Positions 35,562 through 63,552 of a DNA stretch of 64,000 nt are shown here, one piece after another. The position numbers and the translations under genes are program-made. This stretch comes from Clostridiales bacterium. GTDB lineage: Bacteria; Bacillota; Clostridia; Lachnospirales; Lachnospiraceae. The stretch is taken from contig DUNO01000043.1 of the NCBI GenBank assembly GCA_012839295.1, positions 1 to 64,000 on the forward strand, written 5' to 3'. How positions within the stretch are numbered: the first letter of the stretch is position 1; each line of letters begins with the position of its first letter. Under the pieces are notes generated by a model. That model saw nothing but the letters and a program-made list of their open reading frames with translations. It was not told the origin of the DNA and searched no databases.

Positions 35562-35668
35562 TTCAATTCCTCCCATTAACCAAGTACAATTTCCTTGTAG
35601 TGTTATTTTATCGCCCGCTTTACATAATCTGGTTTTCCATAACCCGCAATATGTTTTCCGGGCACGCC

Positions 35669-43940: not shown

Positions 43941-45026
43941 CTATTCAAAGAAAACTTCTTTTCCTGTCTTAGCTGACTGATAAATCCCCTCAATAATCTG
44001 GGTAACTACCATGGCTTCCTCCGGTTTAATGAACGGCTCTACGTCTTCCCGGATTGCTTTAACCAACTCCCTGGACTCTCTGAGCATGGGCGGAACCGGC
44101 TTGATGGAAAAGGGTGCCCCGGGAACACCCATATCCGGCTCCAGCACATATGGCTTGCCATTCTTAACACCGTTGATGCGTACGCCACCCTGATTAAACA
44201 TGTCAACACCGGCCTCCGTGCCGCAGAGTGTCGTCTTCATATCCCCGCTCAGCATATTGATTAACCAGGCAGCCTCCAGATATATGGTGGCACCGTTCTT
44301 CATTGTGATGATTGCAAAGCCGGAATCCTCCACCTGGAATTCTTCCTCCTGCCACTCTCCCCAGATATTACCCTCCGGCTTACCGGACATCTTCCGGTAG
44401 GTATGAGCCTTTACGCTCAGGGGTTCATAATTATTCATTGCCCAAAGGGTCAGGTCAAGGGCATGGGGAGCTCCGTCAATCAACACACCTCCCCCGTTCT
44501 TTCCTGACAGGTACTCACCCCATTTGGGGACGGCACGGTATCTGGCCGCATGGGCCTTTGCATAATAGATATCCCCCAATTCCCCTTTTTCACACAGCTC
44601 CTTGATATAAAGCGCTTCCGGACGGTATCTCCACTGATAGCCGATGGTCAGCTTCTTATCCGCTTTTTTGGCCGCCCCTATCATAGCTTCACATTCCGCC
44701 TTGGTGGTTGCCATGGGCTTTTCACAAAGGACATGGTTGCCCGCCTCCAGTGCCGCAGCCGTCATCTCACAATGCAGCGGATTTGGTGTCGCAATATGTA
44801 TAATATCCGTCCTCACCTCTGCAAGCATTTTCTTATAATCACCATAAATTCCAATGTCCTTCAGACCAAACAGCTCTGCCAGGCGCACCGCCCTTGCCTC
44901 ATCAATGTCACATAGTGCAACAATTCTTACATCCGGATTGGCCATTAACCCGGGAAGGTGCTTATCCTCCGCAATCCATCCGCACCCAATAACTGCCACC
45001 TCAAAAACTTTCTTATCCTCTTTCAT
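43941..45026 (-). CDS. Gfo/Idh/MocA dehydrogenase, DgpA-like (2)
   Basis: About 361 residues with GCGW in the Rossmann loop, EKPM with the catalytic lysine, AKAHAARYRAVPKWG and GGGVLIDGAPHALDLTLW. The DxGxH pattern of paralogue 1 is here DGAPH, histidine kept. ATG at 45026 follows GGAGG; longer frames run towards repeat R2. It is the last gene of the module with the Hyi-like isomerase at 45229 and, further up, a PhzA/B-like protein and an AraC-GH39 regulator. Predicted to oxidise a glycoside, probably at C3. Confidence 0.87.
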   Translation of the reverse strand: MKEDKKVFEVAVIGCGWIAEDKHLPGLMANPDVRIVALCDIDEARAVRLAELFGLKDIGIYGDYKKMLAEVRTDIIHIATPNPLHCEMTAAALEAGNHVLCEKPMATTKAECEAMIGAAKKADKKLTIGYQWRYRPEALYIKELCEKGELGDIYYAKAHAARYRAVPKWGEYLSGKNGGGVLIDGAPHALDLTLWAMNNYEPLSVKAHTYRKMSGKPEGNIWGEWQEEEFQVEDSGFAIITMKNGATIYLEAAWLINMLSGDMKTTLCGTEAGVDMFNQGGVRINGVKNGKPYVLEPDMGVPGAPFSIKPVPPMLRESRELVKAIREDVEPFIKPEEAMVVTQIIEGIYQSAKTGKEVFFE

Positions 45027-45087
45027 CCCTTTTCCTCCTACTAACATCATATATTTTTCTTGACAAGATTCTTTCATAGACTAACGC

Positions 45088-45210
45088 GGTGAATATGAGG
45101 TTATCTATATCCATATGGGCGCAGACCGGGCCTCCCATGATTGCCTGTACTTGGCAATTATGGGATGTTAAAGGCAAGCCCAGGTGGATATAGATAACCT
45201 CATATTCACC
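45088..45210. repeat. Structured repeat R2, copy 2 (123 bp)
   Basis: A 33-bp outer stem with mismatches only near the base of the loop. Its upper part differs in sequence from copy 1 (GAGGTTATC against GAGTGTC) yet pairing is kept by matching changes on the other arm. The inner hairpin and GGGCGCAGACCGGGCCTCCC block are conserved. It lies between the isomerase and dehydrogenase genes. Confidence 0.88.
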
Positions 45211-45228
45211 TCACAGCCTCATAGCCTC

Positions 45229-47082: not shown

Positions 47083-47106
47083 TAAAAAAAGAGGAATCAT
47101 TCCTCT
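47083..47106 (-). terminator. Terminator whose loop is the stop codon
   Basis: On the minus strand AGAGGAA-TGA-TTCCTCT is followed by seven T. The TGA loop (47097-47099) is the stop codon of the AraC-GH39 gene, so the last two sense codons form half of the stem. Confidence 0.9.
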
Positions 47107-49505: not shown

Positions 49506-49608
49506 GGACCGTCCTCCCATAAACCTAAGACATCATTTCCCATATCTCCCGGCCTGCTGCCCGGCTTATCTGCCAAAGGAAACAACCCTATATCCGCCTG
49601 TCCTCCCC

Positions 49609-50385
49609 TCAGGATAAATATAATTCCCTGAACCTGATAGAAAGCAGGTTTAAATACATCGCAAACCGGTAATCATCAATAATCCCCAAAGCCCCTTCAA
49701 AGCCATAATAATAATCTGCATATTTCTTATATGGCGGATACTGTGCATCCGTCATGACGAACAGCCCGGCTCCCTGCTTCCTAATTCCTTCCATGACCTC
49801 AAGCACATAGGCCGCATCATGGACTACCGGGGAAATCAGGATGACCAGATCCTCCTTCCCCAGGGATGGTATATCTGCAATCTGCTCCTGGGGGGATGCC
49901 TTGATCTCGCTCATATGCCCCGCCATAATCAGATCTCCCTGGAACCGGTGCTCCGCAAATATAATCCCGTTTGTATAAAATTTAATATTCCTGGAGGCAT
50001 TGATGACCGCTGCCATCTTATCCAGCTCATATATGTCTATCTCTTCCTTCAGGCATCTTATCTGCAAATCCAACAGCTCCAGGTATGCCGTAACGCTGTT
50101 TTCATACCTTGATTTCTCCTGAAAGGAAACATATTGGTTCAGTATCCCATAATTTTTCACGGCATTGACAATACTGCTTTTAAACTCCTGGAAGCTGCTA
50201 TAGCCCAGCTTCTTGCTTAACCGGCTGATTGTTGTCGGGGATACATAGCACAGATCCGCAAGGTCGTATATGGTGCACCCGCTGATTTTATGGATATTCT
50301 GTAAGAGTATTCCGACGACGGTATGATAAATATCTCCTTCTTTACTGCTATTGTAATAGACCTGTAGCTCCTCCAGCGCATGCAT
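49609..50385 (-). CDS. RpiR family regulator (1)
   Basis: A 258-residue RpiR-type protein: N-terminal HTH_6 (about 20-80, TIYDLADLCYVSPTTISRLSKKLGYSSFQEF) and a C-terminal SIS sugar-isomerase-like domain (about 125-245) that binds phosphosugars. GGGGATGAG precedes ATG. It is the first gene before AraC-GH39 (2), with a second RpiR gene at 52832 heading the next module. It likely senses a phosphorylated catabolite. Confidence 0.87.
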   Translation of the reverse strand: MHALEELQVYYNSSKEGDIYHTVVGILLQNIHKISGCTIYDLADLCYVSPTTISRLSKKLGYSSFQEFKSSIVNAVKNYGILNQYVSFQEKSRYENSVTAYLELLDLQIRCLKEEIDIYELDKMAAVINASRNIKFYTNGIIFAEHRFQGDLIMAGHMSEIKASPQEQIADIPSLGKEDLVILISPVVHDAAYVLEVMEGIRKQGAGLFVMTDAQYPPYKKYADYYYGFEGALGIIDDYRFAMYLNLLSIRFRELYLS

Positions 50386-50583
50386 GACAACTCATCCCCA
50401 TTCTTTACGTATCATATATTTTTTCATCTTAAATAAATCAAAAGGCACAATCTTAAACTAGCAGTTTTGCCTGCTAAGTAAAGGCTTTGATAGCCCATTA
50501 CTCAGCTTTCCATAAATATACTTTACTAATGATAAAAAGTCAATTCCTACTTGCATAGTGTGTCCATACAGCACACCACAAAA

Positions 50584-50619
50584 AGGGCAGAAGATCCTCA
50601 TCACCTGATCTTCTGCCCT
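50584..50619 (-). terminator. Rho-independent terminator
   Basis: AGGGCAGAAGATC pairs perfectly with GATCTTCTGCCCT over a 10-base loop; TTTTT follows on the minus strand. It ends the isomerase-dehydrogenase module 52553-50645. The rest of the gap 50386-50644 shows no gene. Confidence 0.9.
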
Positions 50620-50644
50620 CTATACGATACAGAATTTATTCCCT

Positions 50645-51715
50645 TTATTCAAAAAATATGGTCTCACCTGTGGCTGCCGATTTATAAATCCCTTCCATCA
50701 CCCGTGTTACAGCTGCCGCTTGTTCTGGTAAAACAGCTGGATCCCTATCATATAGAATTGCATCAATCCAATGAGTAATGTCATAATCATTCATATTCAT
50801 CATAGGAGGCATGCCTAAGGTTGGAACCGTTATCGACTGCTTTTCATTAATAATTTGATTTAGCCGGATCGAGGTATTCATTTGCGGCCCAACCATATCA
50901 GCACCAGCTTTTGTCCCTGCTAAGGATACAACAATGCCTGGAGCACTCTGTATCATATTAATTGTCCAAGCAGTCTCCATATAAATCACAAGGCCATTCT
51001 TCATCGTTATTAATGCAAAAGCGCTATCCTCAACATCAAAGTTTTGGGGATCCCATGGCCCCAAGGCATTACCCTCTGTACTATAACGCATTTTATCTGT
51101 AATGACGCCCCGCACACTCATAGGCTCATAGTTATCGGCGATCCACATTGGCAAATCTATGGAATGTGGCCCGCCATCCATCAAAACGCCCCCTCCATTT
51201 TTCTCCTTACTCGTATACACACCGTATGCAGGGAGCCTTCTTCCCCTAAGCTGCTGTGATTTCATATAATAAACATCACCAAAATATCCTTGCTTTACGA
51301 GGTCACGCATATAGACACATTGGTCACGATAGCGCCATTGCAAACCTACCGTCAGCTTCTTCCCTGCCTTTTTTGATGCTGCAATCATTTTTAAAGAATC
51401 TTCATAAGTACATGCCATTGGCTTTTCACAATGAACATGCTTACCAAATTCAAATGCCGCTAACGTCATTTCACAATGAAATGGATTTGGTGTACAAATA
51501 TGTACCACATCAACACTAGGATCACTGCAAAGATCCCTGTAATCAGTATAGATCTTTGCATTTAAGCCAAAGGACGCATTGGCCTTTTCGCAACACTCTG
51601 GCAATATATCACATAAAGCTACTATTTCCACTTGGGCTATTTTCATTAAAGATGGAATATGCTTTGTATTGGCTATTACCCCAATTCCAATGATACCAAT
51701 TCTAAGTTTTATCAT
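50645..51715 (-). CDS. Gfo/Idh/MocA dehydrogenase, DgpA-like (3)
   Basis: About 356 residues: GIIGIG in the Rossmann loop (glycine replaced by isoleucine before the last G), EKPM with catalytic lysine, GRRLPAYG and GGGVLMDGGPHSIDLPMW with histidine retained. ATG at 51715 follows AGAGG. It comes 67 bp after the Hyi-like barrel at 51783 and before a strong terminator. It is the DgpA-like dehydrogenase closest to the C-glycoside deglycosidase genes (53983-55503), so it is the best candidate to make the 3-keto substrate for them, though not in the same transcript. Confidence 0.87.
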   Translation of the reverse strand: MIKLRIGIIGIGVIANTKHIPSLMKIAQVEIVALCDILPECCEKANASFGLNAKIYTDYRDLCSDPSVDVVHICTPNPFHCEMTLAAFEFGKHVHCEKPMACTYEDSLKMIAASKKAGKKLTVGLQWRYRDQCVYMRDLVKQGYFGDVYYMKSQQLRGRRLPAYGVYTSKEKNGGGVLMDGGPHSIDLPMWIADNYEPMSVRGVITDKMRYSTEGNALGPWDPQNFDVEDSAFALITMKNGLVIYMETAWTINMIQSAPGIVVSLAGTKAGADMVGPQMNTSIRLNQIINEKQSITVPTLGMPPMMNMNDYDITHWIDAILYDRDPAVLPEQAAAVTRVMEGIYKSAATGETIFFE

Positions 51716-51782
51716 ATTAACCTCTCTTTTTTTAGACATAGATTATTTTCTTGGTTCTACTTCACTTTTCATTACATCCTCA

Positions 51783-52553
51783 TTAAACAAACAGCTTACG
51801 GCTACTAATCAGACTTTCTGCCTTATCCGTAGTGGGTCTATATTCTAATGCTATATAATTGTTATATCCACTATTCTTGATTTCCCTTAAGAGGTATGTA
51901 TAATTAAGTTCACCATCCGTAATCTCCGTACGGTCCGGCGCAGATGCAATGTGGATATGGCCTATTTTATCCAGGTTTTTCTTAATCGTTTGAATTAGGT
52001 TGCCTTCCATCAGCTGAAAATGATAGAAATCGTAGAGTAGCTTCAAATTCGGACTGCTAACTTCATTAAGCATCGCAAAGGCTTCTGCAGAATTCACGAA
52101 AAACGAACCATAAATAGGCTCCAGAATCAATGTAATTTCATCCTTTTCAGCGAGAGGAACCAATTTTTTAAGTCCCTCCACAATATTGGAATAGCTTTCT
52201 TCCCTATCAATGCCTGGCACATTCTGTGCCGTGACAATAATCTTATCGCACCCAAGCCTCTTTGCTACCGGGATCGTCTGTCTTAAGCCTTCCATCGCCA
52301 TTTGATGTGTGCCTTTATCCGCCAACGTTCCTCTATCCTTGGTGCAAATAGAGGACATCTTCAGCCCTAATTCCTCCTTTTTGGCAATAATCAATTCCAT
52401 ATCCTTGTTTTCCCAATCCCAGAATTCTACTGCCTGAAATCCAGTGTCCTTTGCCAAGTACATACCCTCTATAATCTTCTCTGTATTTGCAAAAATTGGA
52501 CCTTGTGGTGTAATTTCTAAATAGAGCAGATCAATACAAAAACTATAATCCAT
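51783..52553 (-). CDS. Hydroxypyruvate-isomerase-like TIM barrel (2)
   Basis: A 256-residue Hyi-type barrel that starts MDYSFCID after GGAGG nine bases upstream. Metal ligands: E in LILEPIYG, D in LYDFYHFQ, H in GHIHIASAP and E in ALEYRPTT. The APDRTEI loop parallels GNPGRNE of the paralogue at 45229. It is paired with DgpA-like dehydrogenase 3 and lies behind the RpiR gene at 52832, with a 42-bp palindrome between. Likely converts a keto-sugar released by cleavage. Confidence 0.87.
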   Translation of the reverse strand: MDYSFCIDLLYLEITPQGPIFANTEKIIEGMYLAKDTGFQAVEFWDWENKDMELIIAKKEELGLKMSSICTKDRGTLADKGTHQMAMEGLRQTIPVAKRLGCDKIIVTAQNVPGIDREESYSNIVEGLKKLVPLAEKDEITLILEPIYGSFFVNSAEAFAMLNEVSSPNLKLLYDFYHFQLMEGNLIQTIKKNLDKIGHIHIASAPDRTEITDGELNYTYLLREIKNSGYNNYIALEYRPTTDKAESLISSRKLFV

Positions 52554-52736
52554 ACCCTTCATCCTCCTTTCACTTACTATGTTTGCAGAAGCTGTGGGCA
52601 ATTTCCCTGCCAGGATAAATACATCTGTTTTCCATTGGCACATCACAGCTATTGATAGGATAATTATACAAAAGGATAATTTCTCTGGCGCTCAGCTTAG
52701 TAAACTCTTTATTATAAAACGACACTCTTCTCCCAA

Positions 52737-52778
52737 AAAATAATCCTTGGTTTCAAATTTGAAACCAAGGATTATTTT
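52737..52778. terminator. Perfect 42-bp palindrome
   Basis: The sequence reads the same on both strands for 42 bases with no loop: the centre is CAAATTTG and the ends are AAAATAATCC and GGATTATTTT. As RNA it gives a stem with U-rich ends in both directions, suiting a terminator for the RpiR gene. As DNA it could extrude a cruciform or bind a dimeric regulator. Confidence 0.85.
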
Positions 52779-52831
52779 AATCACAAGGGATATGCTTACA
52801 GCGTTAACAAACCTTTTTGCCATAGGACAAC

Positions 52832-53614
52832 TTATTCTATATACCGTGACCGGTATACCTCACTAAGTACAAGGATAAAGACCTCAAATATTATGCTTGA
52901 TGCATGATCTGAATTAGAGTTCGGTTCAACATCAAACATTAACTGGTCTGCATAAGATTGGTATCTGGATTTATAGGTATTTGATAATATAATCTTACTT
53001 CCCTTTTCTTTTGCAATTAAAAAAACTGGCGACATATCCATAGTTTCCGCAAATTCCAAGGTGTTTACAAAAAGCAGGCTTTTAGGATCCAATGTCTTTG
53101 CATCCTCTAACATATCCGGTAGCAAACAGAAGTACCCGGTTGCTTTCCCTGTCATAGCTAAATTCTGCTGCAGGGAATAGATTGAATAGATTCGAAACGG
53201 CATATAGAAGCTAATCCTTTCCGCTTGATGTAATTCCTTGGCAAGTGCATCGATCTTTGTAAGATTTAATTTTTGTTCCATAAACTCACAGGATTTATGC
53301 AATCTTGAGAGAAATGCCGGAATAATATTATTCTCATGTCGCACATCTTGTTCAGGAAGCATTCTATTATAATAAGTGTATTGGGAAACAGCGGCCTTTA
53401 ACGCATACCGGAAATCGGAATATGTATCATACCCCATCTTTTGTACCATACGCCAAATTGTCGTGCGTGACGAATGTGTCATTTCCGCAATATCATATAT
53501 TGTAGCATCCGATACTTTGTCCAAATTTTCAAGAATTCCTTTTGCAACGATCCGATAAGTACTGTCCAAGGGAAGTTGATTGTATAATTCCATTAAATTT
53601 TGAAGAACATTCAT
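52832..53614 (-). CDS. RpiR family regulator (2)
   Basis: A 260-residue protein with an N-terminal HTH_6 (TIYDIAEMTHSSRTTIWRMVQKMGYDTYSDF) and a SIS-type domain that is more divergent than in RpiR (1): the usual phosphosugar-binding S/T stretches are hard to see (MPFRIYSIYSLQQNLAMTGKA). GGAG precedes ATG. It lies between the deglycosidase operon's terminator and the isomerase-dehydrogenase pair, so it may regulate either. Confidence 0.85.
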   Translation of the reverse strand: MNVLQNLMELYNQLPLDSTYRIVAKGILENLDKVSDATIYDIAEMTHSSRTTIWRMVQKMGYDTYSDFRYALKAAVSQYTYYNRMLPEQDVRHENNIIPAFLSRLHKSCEFMEQKLNLTKIDALAKELHQAERISFYMPFRIYSIYSLQQNLAMTGKATGYFCLLPDMLEDAKTLDPKSLLFVNTLEFAETMDMSPVFLIAKEKGSKIILSNTYKSRYQSYADQLMFDVEPNSNSDHASSIIFEVFILVLSEVYRSRYIE

Positions 53615-53786
53615 TTTTTCTGCTCCTACAACTCTGACTTATGAACTATATGTGTATTATATCATTCTTTCTTTTGAAGTAAAAGAAATCTTTCAAACGG
53701 GTTTATTCTCCCTATATCAAAGCCGGGCAATTCATATCATTTACTTTTTATACCAGCATACTACTAAAGCCATGCTGATTAGCTCT

Positions 53787-53872
53787 ACGTTATATCATGT
53801 ACAAACCACATGATATGGCACTTCGTGCCAGGGATGCGCACTATGCTTCGCTCCGGCGCCATGATATAACGT
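53787..53872. repeat. MITE-like element with 13-bp inverted ends
   Basis: ACGTTATATCATG at 53787 is repeated perfectly in inverse at 53860-53872. The interior has ATCATGT...ACATGAT and GGCACTTCGTGCC hairpins and is more GC-rich than the flanks. The layout resembles small non-coding mobile elements. There is no transposase in the window and only this copy. Confidence 0.55.
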
Positions 53873-53903
53873 CTGTCGACATTATATCATAAAGACAGGA
53901 TGC

Positions 53904-53946
53904 AATAAAACAGAAGAGCCAGGTCTCCTGTCTCTTCTGTTTTATT
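53904..53946 (-). terminator. Rho-independent terminator of the deglycosidase operon
   Basis: AATAAAACAGAAGAG pairs perfectly (15 bp) with CTCTTCTGTTTTATT around a 13-base loop, 37 bp past the dgpC-like stop. The stem's A/T-rich base gives a U-rich 3' end on the minus strand. Confidence 0.88.
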
Positions 53947-53982
53947 AGCGACACACTTCTATATAATTTAGGTATTTAGCTT

Positions 53983-55035
53983 TTATCCTTCGATAGCTCT
54001 TCTAAGCGCTTCCTGGTGCCTGCGGACCTGCTCCACACTGTCTACCTCATAAGCATCATTAAGCATGCCGTTTCCTTCATATTCTGAGCTTAAATATCCA
54101 TGATAGCCGGCTTTCTTATATGCTTCAACAACCTCCCTGATCGGAATAGAGGTCTCCTCATAGTTCTCATCCACATGATAAAACTTTGCATGGGTGTGAT
54201 AGATATATTTAATATTATCAATGATATCCCGGGTCTCACACCAGGTGTACTGGAAGCTTGACCTGGCATAGTCTAAGGCATTCCCTTCCCCACCTAATCT
54301 CTGTATCTTCTCTAACAGATCCGGAAGCCCGTTCACCCTCATATATTCCTGATGTGCCCTTCCCAGGTTTGTATCATACTTAATCTTGGTAAAGCCCTTT
54401 GTCACACGGTTATGGAAGGCATCCTCCACAGCCTTAATGCACTCCTCACTGACACCCTTTCTCCTTGCCTGCTCCGTCAAGAGATCCGGAATCTTCTTGC
54501 AGAAGATCCCAAAGTCAGGCATAAAGCCAAAGTTCTTGGTCCCTGTTCTTAATATCATCTCCATATAGCCATCTGCCCAGCCTGAATTTAAGGAAAATGG
54601 GGAATGTACCTCCAGGCATACCTTAATATCGTTGGCTTCCGCAATGGGAATGCTTCCTTCAATGACATTCATCGGGGTGGATACCAGAGTACGGAGCGTC
54701 TTAAAGCCCATCTCATGAGCCAGCCTGATATCCCGTTCCATCATTGCGATCTGTTCCTTTAAGGTACAGGTACGGTTTTTATAAATCCGGTTCTCCAAGA
54801 ATGCATCATAGCAGGTCGGCTCAGTGCCATACTTCTCCATCCAGCCAAACCACTGCTCCTTGAACTTTGGTGTAAGCACCGGAAAGTCATCCATCATCTG
54901 CTCAGCAAGCAGCTCAATCCCCGTCGCCCCCGTCTTTGATACCTCACGGATACAATCCTCCAGGCTCATCTTCCCAAGATAATATTCTTCCTGGAAGCTA
55001 TATAAGGAAACACTCCTTTTTATATCATAACTCAT
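53983..55035 (-). CDS. dgpC: C-glycoside deglycosidase alpha subunit (DgpC/CGD-alpha-like)
   Basis: About 350 residues with a xylose-isomerase-like barrel and the metal site E142-x-H144 (LEVHSPF), D174 (MPDFGIF), H280/H282 (HTHAKF) and E318 (SSEYEG). The length, the KRSVSLYSFQ start and the motif order fit the alpha subunit of C-glycoside deglycosidases, which cleave the C-C bond of 3-keto C-glycosides (for example 3-oxo-puerarin). It follows the beta-subunit-like gene at 55114 by 78 bp. The start is uncertain: ATG at 55035 has only a weak GAGAG site, and a TTG at 55074 is possible. It would need a dehydrogenase to supply the 3-keto substrate. C- versus O-glycoside specificity cannot be decided from sequence. 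Confidence 0.82.
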   Translation of the reverse strand: MSYDIKRSVSLYSFQEEYYLGKMSLEDCIREVSKTGATGIELLAEQMMDDFPVLTPKFKEQWFGWMEKYGTEPTCYDAFLENRIYKNRTCTLKEQIAMMERDIRLAHEMGFKTLRTLVSTPMNVIEGSIPIAEANDIKVCLEVHSPFSLNSGWADGYMEMILRTGTKNFGFMPDFGIFCKKIPDLLTEQARRKGVSEECIKAVEDAFHNRVTKGFTKIKYDTNLGRAHQEYMRVNGLPDLLEKIQRLGGEGNALDYARSSFQYTWCETRDIIDNIKYIYHTHAKFYHVDENYEETSIPIREVVEAYKKAGYHGYLSSEYEGNGMLNDAYEVDSVEQVRRHQEALRRAIEG

Positions 55036-55113
55036 TTCTCTCACGCGCCCTTTCCATTTTAGATTATCTGCCAAAGCACCCCATCAGGGGATCTTCTATC
55101 ACCGAACCTTATA

Positions 55114-55503
55114 CTATACAATTTCAAAATCATACTCTCCGGGCTTTACAAGAATCATCGGCATATAGGAGGGAGCAATGGTCTGAACCGCTTTAATATG
55201 GTGCTTTCCCTTCGCCAATCCGCCATCCTTTAAAACAGTCACCGTGGCATACTGGCCATATTTCCAGCGGTAGGTAATAACCGTCTCCATCTCATCCAAG
55301 GTAAAGGTATCCCCCTCCAGGGTAAACCGGATATCCTCCCTGTTAAACTCCTCCCCATCCACATTAACCTCAATATTGCGGATAATAGAAAGGGTTACTC
55401 CTCTATAATACTGCATCTTAAAATCAAACTGAAAGCCAATTACCTTTCCGTTCTTTTCTACATTCTTAAATCCCTTCGGATCAAACATATATTTCGGATT
55501 CAT
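55114..55503 (-). CDS. dgpB: C-glycoside deglycosidase beta subunit (DgpB-like, DUF6379)
   Basis: A 129-residue all-beta protein (GVTLSIIRNIEVNVDGE, FTLEGDTFTLDEM, VLVKPGEYDFEI-type end). Size, composition and position next to the alpha subunit match the small beta subunit (DUF6379) of DgpB-DgpC complexes, where it contributes to the active site and oligomer. GAGGAG precedes ATG. No homologue lies beside the other isomerases in this window, which makes this pair the specific signature for C-glycoside cleavage. Confidence 0.85.
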   Translation of the reverse strand: MNPKYMFDPKGFKNVEKNGKVIGFQFDFKMQYYRGVTLSIIRNIEVNVDGEEFNREDIRFTLEGDTFTLDEMETVITYRWKYGQYATVTVLKDGGLAKGKHHIKAVQTIAPSYMPMILVKPGEYDFEIV

Positions 55504-55613
55504 CGACCTACTCCTCTCTCATTTTCTTAAGATTTTCCCATTCCTCGGATTCTCTCACTCCTTAACTCTCACTTCCTAGAATTCTCTCAGCAAAAGCTTC
55601 TGTAGCCTAACGC

Positions 55614-55736
55614 GATGAGCCAGAGTACATCTATGCCTATCTGGGCGCAGACCGGGCCTCCCGTGATTGCCTGCACTTGGCAATCATGGGATGTTAAAGG
55701 CAAGCCCAGATGGATATAGATGCACTCTGGTCCACC
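55614..55736. repeat. Structured repeat R2, copy 3 (123 bp)
   Basis: The outer stem differs strongly in sequence from the other copies (GCCAGAGTACATC against GAATATGAGTGTC) but still pairs, mostly through complementary or G-U changes. The core (GGGCGCAGACCGGGCCTCCC) and inner hairpin are nearly identical to copies 1 and 2. It lies between the NTF2-like gene and dgpB. The flanks CTAACGC and TCACAGCCT are shared with copy 2. Confidence 0.85.
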
Positions 55737-55773
55737 TCACAGCCTAAATCCTTCTCACTCATAATTACGCAGA

Positions 55774-56436
55774 TTACTCTTTGCCCCAGAATCCCTTCAG
55801 ATCCTCCTCCGTCTGGTGGCGGTAGGGAGGCTCAAAAAACATATCCGTAGACTTTTCGCTTCCATAAAAGGTAGGCGGATAGCTGGAGGGCCTGTCTGCC
55901 GTGGGTCTGCCATCATTTCCGATCTGGCTTCCCATCTTCACCTTATCCAGCTCAACCCAGGAATGGTGATAATCACATAATAACAGGTGGGGGATTCTAA
56001 AATGCCAGAACTTCCACTCCCCGTTTTCCTTGATAAAGTCTATGGCATACATGCCCCAGATCCAATAGGCCTCCAGGTCTTTTGAATCTGCTGCACGGCG
56101 GCCTTCTGCTCCGGGAGATAGCCATAATCCCCTGGCGGTCTTTCCATCTGCCGCAACCTCAATAATATCTGTTGTTAGAAGGTGGAGTGCAAAAACACCC
56201 TTCCCATCCCCTTCCATGGAGTGGTGCCAATCGACAAAAAATGTTTCGATCCCCTTACGTCCATCAAAGATTCCGAAGCCTTCACAATCGATCCAGATAT
56301 CTTCCCTGTCGGCGAACATATCCGGTACTCTTTCCCAGACACGTCCGTAGCCGTAATACACATATCTTGCCATTAACTTTTTTATTTCCTGTACATCCCA
56401 TAGCTCCTGTACCTTTTGCTCAAATAATGGTTCCAT
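55774..56436 (-). CDS. NTF2-like (SnoaL-type) protein of the deglycosidase operon
   Basis: A 220-residue protein whose first 160 residues show the NTF2/SnoaL_4 pattern (VQEIKKLMARYVYYGYG, DGRKGIETFFVDWHHS, WKFWHFRIPHLL), with a proline-rich tail (RPSSYPPTFYGS). GGAGGAG precedes ATG. It is cotranscribed with the importer genes upstream and dgpBC downstream. Related proteins bind or act on aromatic or polyketide compounds, so binding of the flavonoid-like aglycone or its keto-glycoside is plausible but unproven. Confidence 0.78.
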   Translation of the reverse strand: MEPLFEQKVQELWDVQEIKKLMARYVYYGYGRVWERVPDMFADREDIWIDCEGFGIFDGRKGIETFFVDWHHSMEGDGKGVFALHLLTTDIIEVAADGKTARGLWLSPGAEGRRAADSKDLEAYWIWGMYAIDFIKENGEWKFWHFRIPHLLLCDYHHSWVELDKVKMGSQIGNDGRPTADRPSSYPPTFYGSEKSTDMFFEPPYRHQTEEDLKGFWGKE

Positions 56437-56646
56437 CCTGTCTCTCCTCCCTTTTTCCCAAATATCAGTATATTTTCCATCATATAATCATATAATTTCC
56501 ATCTCAGCCTTTTATCCAAGGCCTCTATCCCAGAATCATAGCCCAGACACCTCTCCAAGCCTCATCCCGGAATTTTTCCTCAGGCACTAATCATGCCTCT
56601 CTCAGAATTCCACACTTAGCACTTATCCAATCCTCTATCCCTGCAT
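56437..56646. other. Low-complexity CT-rich spacer
   Basis: Between the NTF2-like gene and the permease the sequence is a loose series of CCTCTATCC/CAGAAT-like words on the plus strand, apparently worn short repeats. I see no gene or hairpin. Confidence 0.35.
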
Positions 56647-57546
56647 CTACTCCTTGACACCACCGAGGGCGATACCCTTGATAAAATACTTCTGGAAGAA
56701 TGGATAAAGTGCCATAATGGGAATTACACCAATCACAGCCATCGCCATCCTGATTCCCGTTCCTGGCATATCCGATACACCCAAGGTATTCGTCGAGCTC
56801 ATAGTCGAAATAGCGCTGATATTATTGATAATGCTGTTCAGCAGCAGCTGCAAGCTGTATAGCTTGGAATCGCTGATATAGTACAGACCGTTCACCCAGT
56901 CATTCCAGTAGCCCAGGCCGACCATCAGCCCGATGGTTGCCAAAATCGGGGTGGACAAAGGCAGCACGATCTTCCGGTAGATATAGAATTCTCCGGCTCC
57001 GTCAATCTTAGCGGCCTCAATTAGGGCCGGATGGATATTGGTAGCAAAATTAGTCTTATAAAGCATAATATAAAACCCGTTAAACACTAAGTTGGGGAGG
57101 ATCAAGGCGATGAGCGTATTCTTGATATGGAAAATCTGGGTCCACATCAGGTAAGACGGAACGGCTCCTCCGTTAAAAAGCATTGTGAACACCACCAGCA
57201 TAGTAACGATTTTCTTTCTTGGATAATCCTTTCTGGACATGGGATAAGCCAGCAAAGGACCGATAATTAAGCTGATCAAGGTTCCTACAATTGTGATAAA
57301 GAAGGTAATGCCATAGGACCTCATGATCTTAGCCCCGTTTGTAATAAATAGATAGACATATGCATAGCCACTAAAGTCCGTTGTAATAAAATGATATCCA
57401 TCTGCCAGCAGTGACTTTTCATTTGTAACGGATGAAGAGATCAGCAGCACGAAAGGAAGAACTGCCATCAGTGCTAAAATTGCCAGAAAAACTACTATTA
57501 TAATTTGGAAAATCTTTTCCCCTGTTCCTTTTACACCTGTTTCCAC
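56647..57546 (-). CDS. Carbohydrate ABC permease (LplC/MalG-like) (2)
   Basis: A 299-residue, six-helix permease with the MalG-type coupling loop (IEAAKIDGAGEFYIYRKIVLP) and KGIALGGVKE C-terminus, closely similar to 35669-36553. It starts at GTG with GGAGGG upstream. With the permease at 57561 and binding protein at 59307 it forms the importer that precedes dgpBC, presumably bringing in the C-glycoside. No ATPase is encoded nearby. Confidence 0.92.
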   Translation of the reverse strand: METGVKGTGEKIFQIIIVVFLAILALMAVLPFVLLISSSVTNEKSLLADGYHFITTDFSGYAYVYLFITNGAKIMRSYGITFFITIVGTLISLIIGPLLAYPMSRKDYPRKKIVTMLVVFTMLFNGGAVPSYLMWTQIFHIKNTLIALILPNLVFNGFYIMLYKTNFATNIHPALIEAAKIDGAGEFYIYRKIVLPLSTPILATIGLMVGLGYWNDWVNGLYYISDSKLYSLQLLLNSIINNISAISTMSSTNTLGVSDMPGTGIRMAMAVIGVIPIMALYPFFQKYFIKGIALGGVKE

Positions 57547-57560
57547 TTTATTCCCTCCTC

Positions 57561-58910
57561 TTAGAATAATGCACTATCTTTGTCAACCTTACTTACAATC
57601 CGGTTTACTATCATAATAAGGACAAAGCCTACGATAGACTGATATGCACTTGCCGCTGATGCCATTGAAATATTGTTCGTCTTCATCAAACCACGGTAAA
57701 CATAGGTATCAATTGTCTGTGTTACTCCATACAGGGAACCGGAATCCATCGGAACCTGATAAAACAGACCAAAGTCTGAATAGAAGATTCTTCCCACCTG
57801 GATCAGTACCAGGGTGATGATCGTAGGTTTTAATAAAGGCAGGGTGATGTTAATGATCTGCTTCCAGCGGTTACAGCCATCCACATAGGAAGCCTCATAT
57901 AAGCTCTTGTCAATACCTATAATGGAGGACATAAAGATGATGGAGCTATAGCCCAGACCCTTCCAGGAGTTAACGAACACCAGGATAAAAGGCCAATATG
58001 CCTTTGTGGCATAGAAGTTAACCGCATTGTCCTTCCCTAATATGGCATTATTGATCCATCCCGCTTCGTTGCTCAAGAATCCATATACGATATAGGCAAC
58101 GATAATCATTGAGATCAGCTGGGGAAGCAGGATCGTTGTCTGGAAGAGCTTCTGCAGCTTTTTAGAGAAAACCTCGCTTAAGCAGATACCTACAACAATA
58201 CCTAATACATTACCGACAATTATAAAGGTCAGGTTATACAGAAGGGTATTCCTGGTAATGACAAAGGCATCACTTGTCGCAAATAAATATTTAAAATTCT
58301 CAAAGCCTATCCAGCCGCTTTTCCATATACCCACGGAAAAGTCAATCTTCTTAAAGGCAAGCAAAATACCCACCATTGGAAGGTAATTATTAATAATGAC
58401 ATACAGAAGTCCCGGCAATACCATAAAGTCAAGGGCAGTAACAGCCTTTGCCTGGTACAGGATATAAAAGCCCCTGGCTATGATTGCAATTCCAATAACC
58501 ATGAAAATAATGGAGCCATAGGCTACCTTAACGTTTTTTGCCTTTTCGAGAATTCCCGGCACTGAATTTGAAAATATCAGGTTGATTACTACAAACAACA
58601 CTCCCAGGAGGAGAATACTTAAGCCTCCCCATCTGGGCTTTAGCCTGGAAAATACAAGGGCAAATACAACCAGCAATATGATGACGACAAGCTCTGCCCA
58701 CATAGTCCAGGCAGGACTTACCGCAAGCTGCCCTCCCATAATTGTTTTTCCAAACAAGAATTCAATTCCTGATATCGTATATACCACTCTTTTATATGTA
58801 TAGGATGCAAAAGGAGTGATGTAACATAGCACAGTAACAACGGCTAATATGATTATGTCAATCGGCAATTTTCCTTTAAATATAATACTTAATAAATTAA
58901 CTTTTTTCAC
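57561..58910 (-). CDS. Carbohydrate ABC permease (LplB-like) with an extra N-terminal membrane domain (2)
   Basis: About 449 residues. The last 290 match LplB permeases (coupling loop EASYVDGCNRWKQIINITLP). The first 160 form an additional membrane domain with about four helices (IIILAVVTVLCYITPF, LVVIILLVVFALVF, LSILLLGVLFVVINLIF, IIFMVIGIAIIARGF), absent from the 310-residue paralogue at 36567. Start is probably GTG at 58910, with GGAG eight bases upstream. The extra domain might bind a lipid or partner; it has no obvious family. Confidence 0.88.
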   Translation of the reverse strand: MKKVNLLSIIFKGKLPIDIIILAVVTVLCYITPFASYTYKRVVYTISGIEFLFGKTIMGGQLAVSPAWTMWAELVVIILLVVFALVFSRLKPRWGGLSILLLGVLFVVINLIFSNSVPGILEKAKNVKVAYGSIIFMVIGIAIIARGFYILYQAKAVTALDFMVLPGLLYVIINNYLPMVGILLAFKKIDFSVGIWKSGWIGFENFKYLFATSDAFVITRNTLLYNLTFIIVGNVLGIVVGICLSEVFSKKLQKLFQTTILLPQLISMIIVAYIVYGFLSNEAGWINNAILGKDNAVNFYATKAYWPFILVFVNSWKGLGYSSIIFMSSIIGIDKSLYEASYVDGCNRWKQIINITLPLLKPTIITLVLIQVGRIFYSDFGLFYQVPMDSGSLYGVTQTIDTYVYRGLMKTNNISMASAASAYQSIVGFVLIMIVNRIVSKVDKDSALF

Positions 58911-58930
58911 GACCCAGTCTCCTTTCATGC

Positions 58931-59052
58931 TAACGAACATTTGACCATTAGGTCACTCAATGTCGGATGTGAAATACTCTGTATTTCACATTAGCGATCA
59001 TTTGGCCGCTAGGCCATTCAATGTCGGATGTGAAATGATCTTCATTTCACAC
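58931..59052. repeat. Tandem 61-bp repeat with covarying hairpins
   Basis: Two adjacent 61-bp units (58931-58991 and 58992-59052) share TCAATGTCGGATGTGAAAT. Each has two hairpins: GACC-GGTC in unit 1 is GGCC-GGCC in unit 2, and GTGAAATAC...GTATTTCAC becomes GTGAAATGA...TCATTTCAC. Changes on one arm are matched on the other. It lies between the binding-protein and permease genes. Confidence 0.8.
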
Positions 59053-59174
59053 TATCCTGCTTCCACTCTATATAAACTATTTTCATAGCAATATTCGTCT
59101 TGGATATAACATGTACTTCGTTTTGCAAACACCCCAGAAATGTCCTAGCTTTCTGCTTATGTATGGAAATTTTT

Positions 59175-59213
59175 ACGTTATGGCATATCCGCTCACAGGA
59201 TATGCCATAACGT
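59175..59213. terminator. Strong hairpin in the binding protein/permease gap
   Basis: ACGTTATGGCATATCC pairs perfectly over 16 bp with GGATATGCCATAACGT; the loop is 7 bases. No U-tract follows, so it is more likely an mRNA stabiliser or attenuator than a full terminator. Confidence 0.65.
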
Positions 59214-59306
59214 TGACTTCCTTTTGTTCATCATAGGAAAGGCTTTTCCTTTACCAATCCCATTTTATCATATTTTAGTTAATATTGTTCTATCTACTTA
59301 AAATAA

Positions 59307-60896
59307 TTACTGCTGAGCTTTCCATGCATCCAACTGTGCCTGGTATTCTGCTACTACCTTCTCTGCACCTGCCTCATTCAGCTTCTTAACAAACGCATCA
59401 TATGCCTTTAAATCTACGGAACCACTTTCTACGCCTGGCTTATATTCGCCGATTACGTTGTTGATTGCTGTCAGTTCATTAGAAATATTAGTTAAATCAC
59501 AGCTAAAGCCTAAGTAAGGAGAAATTTCTGCTGATTTTAATTCTGCCAGCTGCTGATCCCTGATATCTGCCGGGTCACCCTCCCATGGATATACTAAGAA
59601 CTGGTTACCATATAAGAAATCAGAGGTATGGTATGCAACGGTATCAGCGGTTACGCCTTCCGGATATTTTGCAACACCGTTCTCAACAACATAATCCCTG
59701 CCTTCTACACCCCAAGCTAAGAGGTTGCAGATATCCTTGTTGGTAAACATTAAGTTAAGGAACTTAGCTGCTGCTTCCGGTTCTGTTGCGCATACAGGGA
59801 TTGCCCAGTCAAACTTTGTTGTATTTCCAGTTGAAATCAAAGGAGTTGCAAGCTTCTTAATAACAACATCATAGCCGCTGGTACCCTTTACGGCTGTCTC
59901 AACACCTAACTCACCCATTTTAACAAAGCTTGCTGTTACATTGGCTTTCATTAAGTTCTCAGATGCCTGGTCTGTTGTTGCAGCATCCTTATAAACATAG
60001 CCTTTTTCATACCAGCTGCGTACTCTTTCAATCATCGCTTTGTATTGAGGAGATGCAAAATTATTAATTACTTTACCGTCTGCATCTACGCCAATTAGCT
60101 TGTATCCATCTCCTAAATTGTCAAATGTAGTAAATCCTGCAAAGCTATCTGTATCAAGGTTACCATTCGGGAAGCAGATGATATTTCCATCCACGTCATT
60201 GTTAGCGATTGGAGAAATTCCTCCCTTGCCCTTAATTGCCTCAAGAATCTTTTCATAGTCAGACCAGCTTGCCATATTGTTAAAAGCATCCGCTAGACCC
60301 AGATCATCAATGATATCTTTTCTTGCAATGATGTAATAGCTGGTAGCTAAATTTCTGTAATTAGGGATTGCATAGATATTACCGTTAATGGTAGTACCCT
60401 TGATATACTCCCCAACCTCTGCCAAAGCTTCCGGTGCATACTTAGGTAAAAGATCGTTCAGAGGCATTAACTGGTTCTGTGCAATCAGCGCTGAAAAGCT
60501 GGAAGCAGGAATCGGAGTTGTTAAGCAAATGTCCACCTTCTCATTACCTGTGATTGCCAGGTTAAGCTGCTGTGAATAGGAACCTACTTCTACATACTGT
60601 AATGTAACGTGGGTGTTAATCTCTTTCTCAGTAATAGCATTGATGCCTTCTTCAACCGCATCCTTACCATCACCCATAGCTCCCAGGGACATTACCATGA
60701 GGGTAATCTCCGCCATGTCTTCCGGTTCTTCCACGTCCTGTGTATCGTCTGCTGCACCAGTGATGTCTTCTGCCACGTCATTCCCAGGATCCTTTGTGCC
60801 TTCATTGCTCCCCTCGGATTTTCCGCAAGCCCCAAGCATTGATACTGCCATTAATAGCACTAACAACATCGCTATAAGTTTCTTAATTTTGTTCAT
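59307..60896 (-). CDS. Carbohydrate ABC substrate-binding lipoprotein (LplA-like) (2)
   Basis: About 529 residues with a lipoprotein signal (MNKIKKL, hydrophobic core, LGACG lipobox), an acidic linker (DDTQDVEEPEDMAE) and a type II binding fold like that at 37552 (VTLQYVEVGSYSQQLNLAI, FDWAIPVCATEPEAA). ATG at 60896 follows GGAGG. It heads the operon that ends with dgpBC, so it is the likely receptor for the C-glycoside or a related plant glycoside. Divergent from AraC-GH39 (3), its probable regulator. Confidence 0.92.
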   Translation of the reverse strand: MNKIKKLIAMLLVLLMAVSMLGACGKSEGSNEGTKDPGNDVAEDITGAADDTQDVEEPEDMAEITLMVMSLGAMGDGKDAVEEGINAITEKEINTHVTLQYVEVGSYSQQLNLAITGNEKVDICLTTPIPASSFSALIAQNQLMPLNDLLPKYAPEALAEVGEYIKGTTINGNIYAIPNYRNLATSYYIIARKDIIDDLGLADAFNNMASWSDYEKILEAIKGKGGISPIANNDVDGNIICFPNGNLDTDSFAGFTTFDNLGDGYKLIGVDADGKVINNFASPQYKAMIERVRSWYEKGYVYKDAATTDQASENLMKANVTASFVKMGELGVETAVKGTSGYDVVIKKLATPLISTGNTTKFDWAIPVCATEPEAAAKFLNLMFTNKDICNLLAWGVEGRDYVVENGVAKYPEGVTADTVAYHTSDFLYGNQFLVYPWEGDPADIRDQQLAELKSAEISPYLGFSCDLTNISNELTAINNVIGEYKPGVESGSVDLKAYDAFVKKLNEAGAEKVVAEYQAQLDAWKAQQ

Positions 60897-61047
60897 ACAC
60901 ATCCTCCTTAAATTTGATACTCCAATTATAATATGTCCCCAATCCCAATACATCATTTTCTATAAGCATTTCACCTTGTTAAGCTAGATGTTTTTTCATT
61001 TTTAATGGAGTGGATAGACAATCCCTACAAAAAGTTTCATATTTTCA

Positions 61048-61076
61048 TTGTAAACTTAACATTTTCAACCTATAAT
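61048..61076 (+). promoter_or_regulatory. Promoter of AraC-GH39 (3)
   Basis: TTGTAA (61048-61053), a 17-bp spacer and TATAAT (61071-61076), about 50 bp before the ATG at 61129. A TATAAT on the other strand near 60930 probably starts the importer operon. Confidence 0.65.
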
Positions 61077-61128
61077 ATACTTAGAATAAATAATTTTTTT
61101 CATCAAAAAGTACGTATAGAGGTAAACC

Positions 61129-63552
61129 ATGTATAAATTAACTACGAATTCACAATATAGTAACGCCATTATATATAAAGTGACTGAGCCTGTTTATTAC
61201 CGGTCGGAAGGAGTCACCTTCCTTTGCATGCTAAGCGGTGACGCGGTCATTACCTGGGATAACAAAAGCTATTATCTATCTGATAAGGATGTCCTCCTTT
61301 TTGGGCCAAACGAGTATTACCATTTAAAAAGCGATACCTCCGCCCTCATATTGGAGCTTAGCTTTGATTATGTCTTCTTTAAGGAAACCTTCTCGTCAGA
61401 TTATGGGAGGCTAATCTGCAATTCCATCCTTGATCAGGAGCATGATTACAAGACCCTGAGAAGGCACCTGGCCGGAACTGCCATTGTCCATTACAGTGAC
61501 CTCCAGGAAAACCGGTTTTATCTGTTATCGAATATCTTCCAGCTGTTTCATTACTTGAGTAACGAGTTTATTCATCCGGTTCCTGAGGATGAGACCACAA
61601 GTAAGCAGCAGCGGAAAATTAACCGGATCCTTTCCTACCTGCAGAAGAATTACCAAAATTCTATTTCTCTCCAGGATCTGGCCGGCTATATGAGCTTAAC
61701 CCCCCAATATCTGGAGCGGTTAATGAAGCAGTCCTTAAATGTCACCTTTTATGATTATCTGAACCAGCTCCGGCTCCAGGCAGCCTATGAACTGCTGAAT
61801 AATACTGCCCACAGCTTAAACTACATTGCCCTAAGCTGCGGTTTTCCAAACCTCTCCTCCTTCCAGAATTCCTTCGTGGGCAAATACGGCGTCAGCCCGG
61901 CAAAATATAGGGAGGATAAGCTGCTGGAGCTGCCGCCCTCCGATTCCAAGGCAGCCTCCTCTATCACAGATGCCCTGGCAAAGGATTTTCTGACTAATAG
62001 CATACGGCTTCCGAATTACTCAAATTCCATGGTAGAGAACTCCACCCCTGTCACTGCCACCGTAAGTGCGGCCAGACATAAGCCCTTCCCTCCTGTCTGG
62101 AAGGATATGATTAACTTAGGGTTGTGCAATAACTTTGAACGCCCCTCCTTCCGAAGCCACCTGACCATACTGCAAAACGAGCTAAAATTTAAATATGGAC
62201 GAATCCAGGGGATTTTAGACCTTATTGATATCTATTCCTCCGAGGATACCACCAACTACAACTTTAATAAGATTTACCGGATCCTGGATTTTCTCCAGAC
62301 AATCCATATGTATCCCTTGTTTGAACTTGGGAATAAATCCCCTACGATCTATAAGGATTATATGGATACCCTTCCCTCGAAGCGGCAGGGGAGCCAGTAC
62401 AGCAGCAGGCTCAAGAAATTATTGCCCGTCTTCCTGGTGAACTGCATTAACCGTTATGGCTTTAAGGAGGTTTCCAACTGGAGGTTTGAGCTATGGATGG
62501 AATACAGTGATTTTATGACCGCAGTGGAAGCACCGGCTGACTATGTGAAGCGTTTCCGGTTTGTAGCTGAAACCGTCAAACAGCATATCCCCCATGCAGA
62601 GGTTGGCGGACCGGGCTTTAATACCTTTCTTCCGGCGGACTACCTGGACGCGCTTTTAAAGGAATTTGTTAAAAGCCATGTCCAACCGGACTTCGTTTCC
62701 ATCTACCTATATCCTTATATCCATCCGCAAAGCGGCCCCTTTGACGATAAGGGCCAGCTTATTATCATATTAAATAAGGATAAGAATGCTTACAAAAAAC
62801 TGGTTGATGGTGCCAGACAGCTCCTGCACAAGCATTTTACAGCCATGCCTAAGCTTTTTGTTACAGAATACAGCTCCGTCATGTATTCCCATAATTACAT
62901 CAACGATTCCACCTACCAGGCGGCCTTCATTGTAAAGGAAACGCTGGATAATTATTCTGCCCTGGATTCCTTTGGTTATTGGCTGATTTCTGATGTTTCC
63001 ATGGAATATGAGGAGGCTGTGAATATCTTATTTGGCGGCAACGGCCTGATCAGCCGGGACGGAATCAAAAAACCCAGCTACCACGCCCTGTCCTTTTTAA
63101 GTGCGCTGGGAGACCGCATCATTGCAAGGGATAATAATTATATTATTACCTCAAATTCCAATAATAAATTCCAGATCCTGGCCTATCATTATTGCCATTA
63201 TAGCGAGGAATATTGTGATGATATAAACAGGTACCGGTCCTTCCGGCTTCCGGCCTCGGCCTTCGAGGTTCTGCCGCCCATTGACCTGACCATACAGCTA
63301 AAGGATATTCCACCGGGCACCTATACCATCAGGCAGCATGTCATAGACCATGAGCACGGCAATATCTTAAATGACTGGCTGCGCCTGGATGCCCCCAGCA
63401 ATTTATCGGACCAGGACATTGAATATTTGAAGAGTATCAGCATCCCCGCCTTTAAGATCTATAAGAAAGAGGTTACTGATCTGCTGTCCGTATCCTGCCA
63501 CTTGAATACGAATGATATTATATTGACAGAGATAGATTTATTAATTAAGTGA
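61129..63552 (+). CDS. AraC family regulator fused to a GH39-like domain (3)
   Basis: An 807-residue fusion: cupin-like sensor (about 1-90), AraC helix-turn-helix (about 170-265, ISLQDLAGYMSLTPQYLERLM) and GH39-like domain (about 325-800). Unlike the other two complete fusions, both catalytic glutamates are retained: E458 (in WMEY, where NEP has become MEY) and E580 (VTEY). It could therefore still hydrolyse or only bind a glycoside. AGAGG precedes ATG. It is divergent from the importer/dgpBC operon and the most likely activator of it; a fourth fusion follows after 23 bp. Confidence 0.88.
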   Translation: MYKLTTNSQYSNAIIYKVTEPVYYRSEGVTFLCMLSGDAVITWDNKSYYLSDKDVLLFGPNEYYHLKSDTSALILELSFDYVFFKETFSSDYGRLICNSILDQEHDYKTLRRHLAGTAIVHYSDLQENRFYLLSNIFQLFHYLSNEFIHPVPEDETTSKQQRKINRILSYLQKNYQNSISLQDLAGYMSLTPQYLERLMKQSLNVTFYDYLNQLRLQAAYELLNNTAHSLNYIALSCGFPNLSSFQNSFVGKYGVSPAKYREDKLLELPPSDSKAASSITDALAKDFLTNSIRLPNYSNSMVENSTPVTATVSAARHKPFPPVWKDMINLGLCNNFERPSFRSHLTILQNELKFKYGRIQGILDLIDIYSSEDTTNYNFNKIYRILDFLQTIHMYPLFELGNKSPTIYKDYMDTLPSKRQGSQYSSRLKKLLPVFLVNCINRYGFKEVSNWRFELWMEYSDFMTAVEAPADYVKRFRFVAETVKQHIPHAEVGGPGFNTFLPADYLDALLKEFVKSHVQPDFVSIYLYPYIHPQSGPFDDKGQLIIILNKDKNAYKKLVDGARQLLHKHFTAMPKLFVTEYSSVMYSHNYINDSTYQAAFIVKETLDNYSALDSFGYWLISDVSMEYEEAVNILFGGNGLISRDGIKKPSYHALSFLSALGDRIIARDNNYIITSNSNNKFQILAYHYCHYSEEYCDDINRYRSFRLPASAFEVLPPIDLTIQLKDIPPGTYTIRQHVIDHEHGNILNDWLRLDAPSNLSDQDIEYLKSISIPAFKIYKKEVTDLLSVSCHLNTNDIILTEIDLLIK

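Follow-up and report, generated by a model that had tools for sequence, protein, structure and literature searches.

Recurrent linkage of an LplABC-type importer with predicted C-glycoside deglycosidases in Lachnospiraceae

C-glycoside deglycosidases (CGDs) split the carbon-carbon bond that joins a sugar to a plant polyphenol and thereby release the aglycones of puerarin, isoorientin, mangiferin and other dietary C-glycosides. A run of six consecutive genes in a Lachnospiraceae genome raises the question of whether the uptake of such compounds can be encoded together with their cleavage. The run lies on the minus strand (60896-53904) of a 64,000-nucleotide stretch, hereafter the window, from a Clostridiales bacterium (assembly GCA_012839295.1, contig DUNO01000043.1, positions 1 to 64,000). 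Open reading frames (ORFs) and Pfam searches identify in it genes for a solute-binding protein (SBP), two permeases (permB and permC), a SnoaL_4 protein, a CGDB protein and an AP_endonuc_2 protein. This confirms the importer and CGD pair described in an initial annotation of the window, and partly supports its interpretation of them as an uptake-to-cleavage unit. The CGD is a known kind of enzyme; the recurrent coupling to an importer is the new part. We consider the run to be probably a cassette for the uptake and cleavage of phenolic glycosides from plants, among them C-glycosides.

The deglycosidase pair

The CGD beta subunit (55114-55503, minus strand) had been proposed to be DgpB/DUF6379-like, and this similarity is clear: Pfam CGDB (PF19906) is matched with E 1.4e-43 and 147.7 bits, far above the cut-off of 27.6, and solved CGD chains, several of them named DUF6379, are among the top Protein Data Bank (PDB) matches (E 6.8e-20 to 7e-5). 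The gene for the alpha subunit (53983-55035) lies 78 nt away on the same strand; its start was taken by eye at the ATG at 55035, giving a protein of 350 residues that are numbered from there. At E<=0.001 alpha matches eight PDB sequences, every one of them a CGD alpha chain or a fused chain. When the predicted structure of alpha (mean pLDDT, a per-residue confidence score, of 91) was compared with solved structures by Foldseek, ranks 1-16 were all CGDs, after which the E value drops from 4.7e-22 to 1.5e-11. Sequence and fold, the metal site and the adjacency of the two genes thus all bear out the DgpC-like assignment of alpha, and we regard 53983-55503 as a CGD pair with predicted activity.

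The closest solved alpha is that of the Deinococcus aerius TR0125 C-glucosyl deglycosidase (8qvc, 8umc; TM score 0.90, 38% identity, E 7.7e-75), which is likewise paired with a DUF6379 beta chain. The DgpB-DgpC (PuCGD) and DfgA-DfgB (EuCGD) enzymes of gut bacteria are built on the same alpha/beta plan, with the same metal site and with neighbouring genes, and window alpha is 28% identical to both DgpC and DfgA over the structural alignment. Among relatives of the alpha gene with a named source, most belong to Lachnospiraceae. Window alpha is a predicted TIM barrel, and its model contains helices at 182-190, 195-211, 222-232 and 235-244 (model number being residue number minus 2), which by their place and number, rather than by superposition, are taken as the CGD lid. 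Such a four-helix lid is not universal among CGDs, as EuCGD has none (PMC8563793). The eliminase of the levoglucosan pathway, LgdB1, was considered and rejected as a counterpart of alpha; the available part of its description gives a TIM barrel of ~30 kDa that is active as a single protein (PMC7676230), whereas alpha has 350 residues and a CGDB partner gene.

The active site can be read from AgCGD2, in which Glu147, Asp179, His269, Lys271 and Glu305 are the metal ligands and His149 and Glu307 are catalytic (Mori et al. 2021, PMC8563793). Because the motifs ExH, D, HxK and ExE match by spacing, the predicted metal ligands of window alpha are E142, D174, H282, K284 and E318, and the predicted catalytic residues H144 and E320. 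In an alignment of 44 rows, comprising the window and 43 hand-picked members of the 67 related loci described below (the other 24 were omitted, some as incomplete or near-duplicate, others for brevity), E142, H144, D174, H282, K284 and E318 are invariant and E320 is kept in at least 90% of rows. The metal site as first annotated therefore stands for E142, H144, D174, H282 and E318; H280, also named there, is likewise kept in at least 90% of rows but is not invariant, and K284 had been overlooked.

The importer and its coupling to deglycosidase genes

LplABC-type importers of the CUT1 family consist of a lipoprotein SBP and two permeases, with a shared ATPase encoded elsewhere. By its gene content, the importer that opens the run appears to be of this type, as initially annotated. 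It comprises the SBP (59307-60896; SBP_bac_8 8.6e-16, DUF3502 1.1e-21), the LplB-like permB (57561-58940; BPD_transp_1 2.1e-14) and the LplC-like permC (56647-57546; BPD_transp_1 6.7e-11), the last of which served as the marker in our co-occurrence tests. The SBP start was taken at the ATG at 60896, with AAGGAGG just upstream and, by eye, an LGAC lipobox; an alternative GTG start for permB is seen by eye near 58910. No ATPase gene was found within the run among its ORFs and Pfam matches, and one OB_MalK-type ATPase was found in the genome, which fits a shared ATPase encoded elsewhere. The LplABC/YtcQ-type importers likewise have a DUF3502 lipoprotein SBP and two permeases with no ATPase gene in the run. 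What differs here is that the clade to which the window importer belongs often adjoins CGD genes; literature searches brought up no characterised member that has a polyphenol glycoside as its substrate.

From the side of the enzyme, 67 related CGD-alpha loci were gathered with up to 9 kb fetched on each side, many of these stretches being incomplete. Two of them (L029 and L031) have the order SBP-SBP-permB-permC-CGDbeta-CGDalpha, their permeases sharing 57 and 66% identity with those of the window; four others (L037, L038, L048 and L060) have only distant permeases (23-28%). From the side of the permease, we surveyed 200 genomes of the family, scoring the best 11 or fewer permC candidates in each. 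A CGDB gene lies within 5 kb on the same strand for five of the eight best permC homologues, the window's own included, and for none of the other 42 listed (Fisher p 2.6e-5, with the split between the top eight and the rest drawn after seeing the data). The chance of this per gene is 0.3-3.6% in the five genomes for which it was worked out. Another known coupled case, on contig C34 of the window's genome (L013), involves a different importer clade and stands outside the permease-side list.

The association also holds at the level of whole genomes. With a second draw added (397 genomes in all; best five or fewer permC and best 11 or fewer CGDB candidates scored per genome, lower-ranking ones being censored), CGDB is present in all eight other genomes that have a permC match of E<=1e-100, as against 26/388 without one (p 1.3e-9). 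In genomes whose best permC match falls only between 1e-70 and 1e-100, CGDB is present in three of ten.

The coupled loci show four basic gene orders. SBP-B-C-beta-alpha is found in the window, where the SnoaL_4 gene intervenes, in L029 and L031, where there are two SBPs, and in genome G110 (L106; permC 82%), where beta and alpha are fused in one ORF. The order beta-alpha-SBP-B-C occurs on contig C55 of the window's own genome (L016), and SBP-beta-alpha-B-C in genome G067 (L107). Finally, in genome G046 (L108) the permeases are followed by four ORFs and then beta-alpha, with an SBP relative on the opposite strand. The alpha chains of six coupled proteins are 23, 42, 32, 34, 66 and 42% identical to that of the window, the last being the fused protein on contig C34, beside the other importer clade, and the seven metal and catalytic residues are kept in 7/7 of the alpha sequences compared. 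Importer-enzyme coupling thus recurs across several genomes of the family, and, since both gene order and CGD partner change, this argues that the pairing itself has been selected for, and not that a single block was inherited.

This linkage singles out a specific importer clade, which might serve in metagenomes as a marker of bacteria that use C-glycosides, and the recurrence of the pairing in several bacteria may be a clue to the uptake step itself. Literature searches (supplements not covered) yielded no description of bacterial uptake of C-glycosides in the text available. In particular, no importer gene is tied to the DgpB-DgpC or DfgA-DfgB pairs in the literature text examined, the word 'transporter' is absent from the main text of PMC8563793 (supplements not covered), and the Catenibacillus paper, in its available part, mentions aldouronate-family ABC transporters and does not tie them to dgpBC.

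Proposed route and competing readings

The initial annotation called the unit complete. The recurrence of importer coupling supports an uptake-to-cleavage unit, but 'complete' is too strong, as there is no dehydrogenase inside the span 53904-60896. The nearest candidate for glycoside 3-oxidation is a DgpA-like Gfo/Idh/MocA protein encoded in the neighbouring run (50645-51715, minus strand), whose best PDB matches are DgpA1 (9m3d, 2.1e-93, 316.6 bits) and DgpA (7xr9, 4.6e-89, 302.3 bits), the next-best match reaching 96.8 bits (1.3e-26). It was chosen because it lies near by and has relatives (67-68%) in L029 and L031. In these two loci, they stand directly upstream of importer and CGD genes together with relatives (55-56%) of the AP_endonuc_2 TIM-barrel protein at 51783-52559 (minus strand; PF01261 1.4e-39), itself a candidate hydratase or isomerase for the released 3-keto sugar. 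A second DgpA-like gene lies at 43941-45044 (337.3 bits), and a third (34473-35576; 432.5 bits, 1e-128) sits beside its own importer genes. The presence of such DgpA-like genes in the window is a point of similarity to the DgpB-DgpC and DfgA-DfgB systems; the oxidation partner of the D. aerius CGD is a GMC-type (glucose-methanol-choline) flavin oxidase and not DgpA-like.

Gene identities, residues, predicted fold and recurrent linkage suggest the following route, in which every reaction is modelled on characterised relatives (the CGD chemistry on PMC8563793). The SBP lipoprotein would capture the glycoside and the two permeases would bring it into the cell, powered by the shared ATPase encoded elsewhere. 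A DgpA-like dehydrogenase, 50645-51715 or alternatively 34473-35576 or 43941-45044, would oxidise the sugar at C3. Within the CGD pair, H144 would abstract the C2 proton with the help of a Mn-type metal site, and beta-elimination would release the aglycone and leave 1,5-anhydro-hex-1-en-3-ulose. A TIM-barrel enzyme, possibly 51783-52559, would hydrate this to 3-keto-glucose, which the dehydrogenase would reduce to glucose. The cycle would be redox-neutral because the dehydrogenase itself performs this last reduction; the scheme follows DgpA, whose bound NAD is re-oxidised by 3-oxo-glucose according to the part of the source available (PMC11239390).

Several observations weigh against reading the run as such a cassette. 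The dehydrogenase closest to DgpA (34473-35576) sits 18 kb off. The importer clade appears within the fetched stretches of only 2/67 related CGD-alpha loci, and there are loci of this clade without a CGD near by: a second locus on own contig C55 (75 kb), and others in G036, G067 (contig C16) and G364 (contig C57). The genome-level test was devised once the lists were known, the permeases in three of the eight genomes (G046, G250 and G322) are only 54-56% identical, and the co-occurrence may partly reflect large, sugar-rich genomes. By a distance criterion fixed in advance (permC of at least 60% identity with CGDB within 5 kb on the same strand), coupling was found in one of three cases on genomes outside the first draw, a weak result. 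The single positive, on G364 contig C24 (79 bp), is by its coordinates probably from the same metagenome-assembled genome as L031. The other two are G364 contig C57 and G292 contig C134, where the distance is 11.3 kb within one stretch that also carries CGD, Gfo/Idh/MocA, FAD_binding_2 and FMN_red genes (L114). Over both draws, 5/10 permC homologues of at least 60% identity have no CGDB gene within 5 kb.

A further point of this kind concerns the substrate, as CGDs can act on O-glycosides. According to the available sections of PMC10628242, PuCGE cleaves 3-keto-phlorizin, an O-glycoside, as well as C-glucosides by beta-elimination, and plant glycosides are mostly O-linked. In addition, on G364 contig C57 (L115) the genes that adjoin the importer clade encode a carboxylesterase (COesterase 3.6e-87) and a GH3 enzyme (1.2e-59), and no CGDB is listed on the contig. 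Because of these neighbours the clade may transport phenolic glycosides of plants more broadly, and for both reasons the initial description of the operon as 'dedicated' to C-glycosides is unproven. The cassette could then serve mainly phenolic O-glucosides or their esters, with the CGD acting in vivo as a 3-keto O-glycoside beta-eliminase and C-C cleavage a side activity or absent. We think this unlikely, the closest solved relatives being named C-glucosyl deglycosidases. Beta also keeps, as Tyr33 in a YYRG motif, the counterpart of PuCGD (PuCGE) Tyr39beta, as placed from the PDB alignment on the assumption that chain numbering starts at Met1. In PuCGE this tyrosine is required for C-glycoside cleavage and hardly for O-glycoside cleavage (PMC10628242, same sections). 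Its equivalent is, however, present in all 69 rows taken from related loci, without removal of duplicates, and in 13/14 within the window's genome, the window included; it therefore fits CGD membership and hardly discriminates C- from O-substrates.

It is also conceivable that importer and CGD are unrelated neighbours and that the cargo of the importer is an ordinary plant oligosaccharide. The window's genome appears to contain a great many LplABC-type importers (163 first-look permC candidates), few related CGD loci contain the clade, and dispersed repeats occupy both the 366-nt gap between SBP and permB and the 270-nt gap between the SnoaL_4 and CGD beta genes. Against this, adjacency is specific to the clade and is accompanied by co-occurrence across genomes while gene order is shuffled, and in G067 the CGD genes sit between SBP and permeases; we judge a chance neighbourhood improbable. 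That alpha is an ordinary sugar isomerase or epimerase of xylose-isomerase-like fold, as its Pfam search returning AP_endonuc_2 only might suggest, is very hard to credit and was rejected, given the sixteen CGDs heading the Foldseek ranking, the ten-log gap that separates them from the next proteins, the adjacent CGDB subunit, and the seven CGD residues and lid.

The NTF2-like protein, gaps and other genes

An NTF2-like protein is indeed encoded in the run, as initially annotated (55774-56436, minus strand; 220 aa, SnoaL_4 PF13577 6.2e-17). Its suggested place as a standard part of the unit was not upheld: BLAST found it in 0/67 related CGD loci, and we rejected it as a conserved third component. 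Relatives at E<=1e-10 occur in 4/199 other genomes of the family (5/200 with the window's). Four of their places, one in the window's genome, were viewed more widely. One relative lies beside another LplABC-type importer (L102), one has LplABC-type permeases ~8 kb away (L105), and one has a CGD pair ~3 kb away together with an SBP relative, in a copy with an in-frame stop (L103); around the fourth (L104) neither importer nor CGD was seen. Separately, the 2.3-Mb genome G091 gives eleven matches to the protein, several in tandem (contigs C2, C50, C52 and C129, seen as short stretches only).

The nearest solved chain is the distant LdpA (8abv, E 2.7e-10), a diarylpropane gamma-formaldehyde lyase, described in the available text as acting on phenolic lignin dimers, which makes an aglycone role for the NTF2-like protein thinkable. 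Catalytic SnoaL_4 dehydratases and lyases such as BaiE, LinA and LdpA use an Asp-His dyad, according to the accessible part of PMC11476836. In the alignment with LdpA the window protein keeps the His and has Gly for Asp. None of the four aligned relatives covering this stretch clearly shows the residue that we take to be the dyad Asp of LdpA. The protein modelled alone by AlphaFold has a pLDDT of 36. We would offer only tentatively, and as rather unlikely in all its parts together, a fuller proposal: the clade would be a dedicated importer of intact C-glycosyl polyphenols, forming a mobile cassette with different split or fused CGD pairs; C-C cleavage would be intracellular, redox-neutral and growth-supporting catabolism rather than chance detoxification; and the NTF2-like protein, although dyad-less, would act on the aglycone.

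Transcription of the run from importer to CGD as a single message is likely. A terminator-like hairpin closes it (53904-53946; 20-nt arms 95% complementary, -27.1 kcal/mol, z -8.3), and another lies 3' of the SBP gene (59175-59213; perfect 16-nt arms, -26.1 kcal/mol, z -7.1). The 270-nt gap contains a MITE- or REP-like palindromic element of 139 nt (55607-55745; -72 kcal/mol, z -6.6), resembling miniature inverted-repeat transposable or repetitive extragenic palindromic elements. It recurs at 39 or more other places in the genome, 82-92% alike (among the best 40 of 111 candidates), one of them at 45077-45219. The 366-nt gap holds a second dispersed repeat family (58923-59230) with a 61-nt tandem unit and 43 other rows in the genome. 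These gap elements are genome-wide repeats, not private terminators, and may affect read-through. An Rfam search of 49000-62000 gave no match at the gathering threshold.

The window's genome (G000) has 14 CGDB genes, six of them on the window's own contig; the contigs concerned are C48 (69-89 kb, just right of the window), C14, C34, C43, C52 and C55. A same-strand ABC importer gene lies within 5 kb of seven of the 14, a count given with no comparison to chance. G067 also has 14, whereas of the 35 genomes that bear CGDB in the 397-genome survey, 30 have 1-3. Fused beta-alpha ORFs occur on own contig C34 (L013 5660-7078, 472 aa) and in G110 (L106 9980-11374, 464 aa, directly following the importer); the two are 74% alike, and the 435-aa PDB chain 8qrz matches both CGD subunits. 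In loci from two genera (L106 12417-18273 and beyond; L109 11790-19696) the importer clade is followed downstream by genes for an iron alcohol dehydrogenase, a 2-hydroxyacid dehydrogenase, an Oxidored_FMN protein and an FGGY kinase, the Pfam assignment of each having been made in one of the pair; a CGD is present in L106, and none adjoins the importer in L109.

Partner clusters at the 67 related loci, each named from one Pfam-tested member, include transporters of the major facilitator superfamily type (20 loci), FAD_binding_2 (25), NuoF-like (18), NuoG-like (18) and FMN reductase (24) proteins. FAD proteins and NuoF- or NuoG-type proteins occur together in 19/67 (L019, L024, L035, L077 and others). 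The FAD_binding_2/Nuo/FMN reductase setting gives the impression that deglycosylation is linked with reduction of the aglycone.

The run is flanked by regulators. An RpiR-type gene (52832-53614, minus strand; HTH_6 1.5e-10) belongs to the neighbouring run, and an AraC-type regulator of 807 aa with a GH39-like domain (61129-63552, plus strand; HTH_18 2.2e-18, Glyco_hydro_39 6.8e-48) diverges from the importer. Two other AraC regulators of this kind, ~810 aa, are encoded in the window (31050-33494 and 47097-49520), and BLAST finds such genes in 37/67 related CGD loci. The one at 47097-49520 has, by eye, WNAP in place of the usual WNEP motif, hinting at a dead enzyme that senses sugar.

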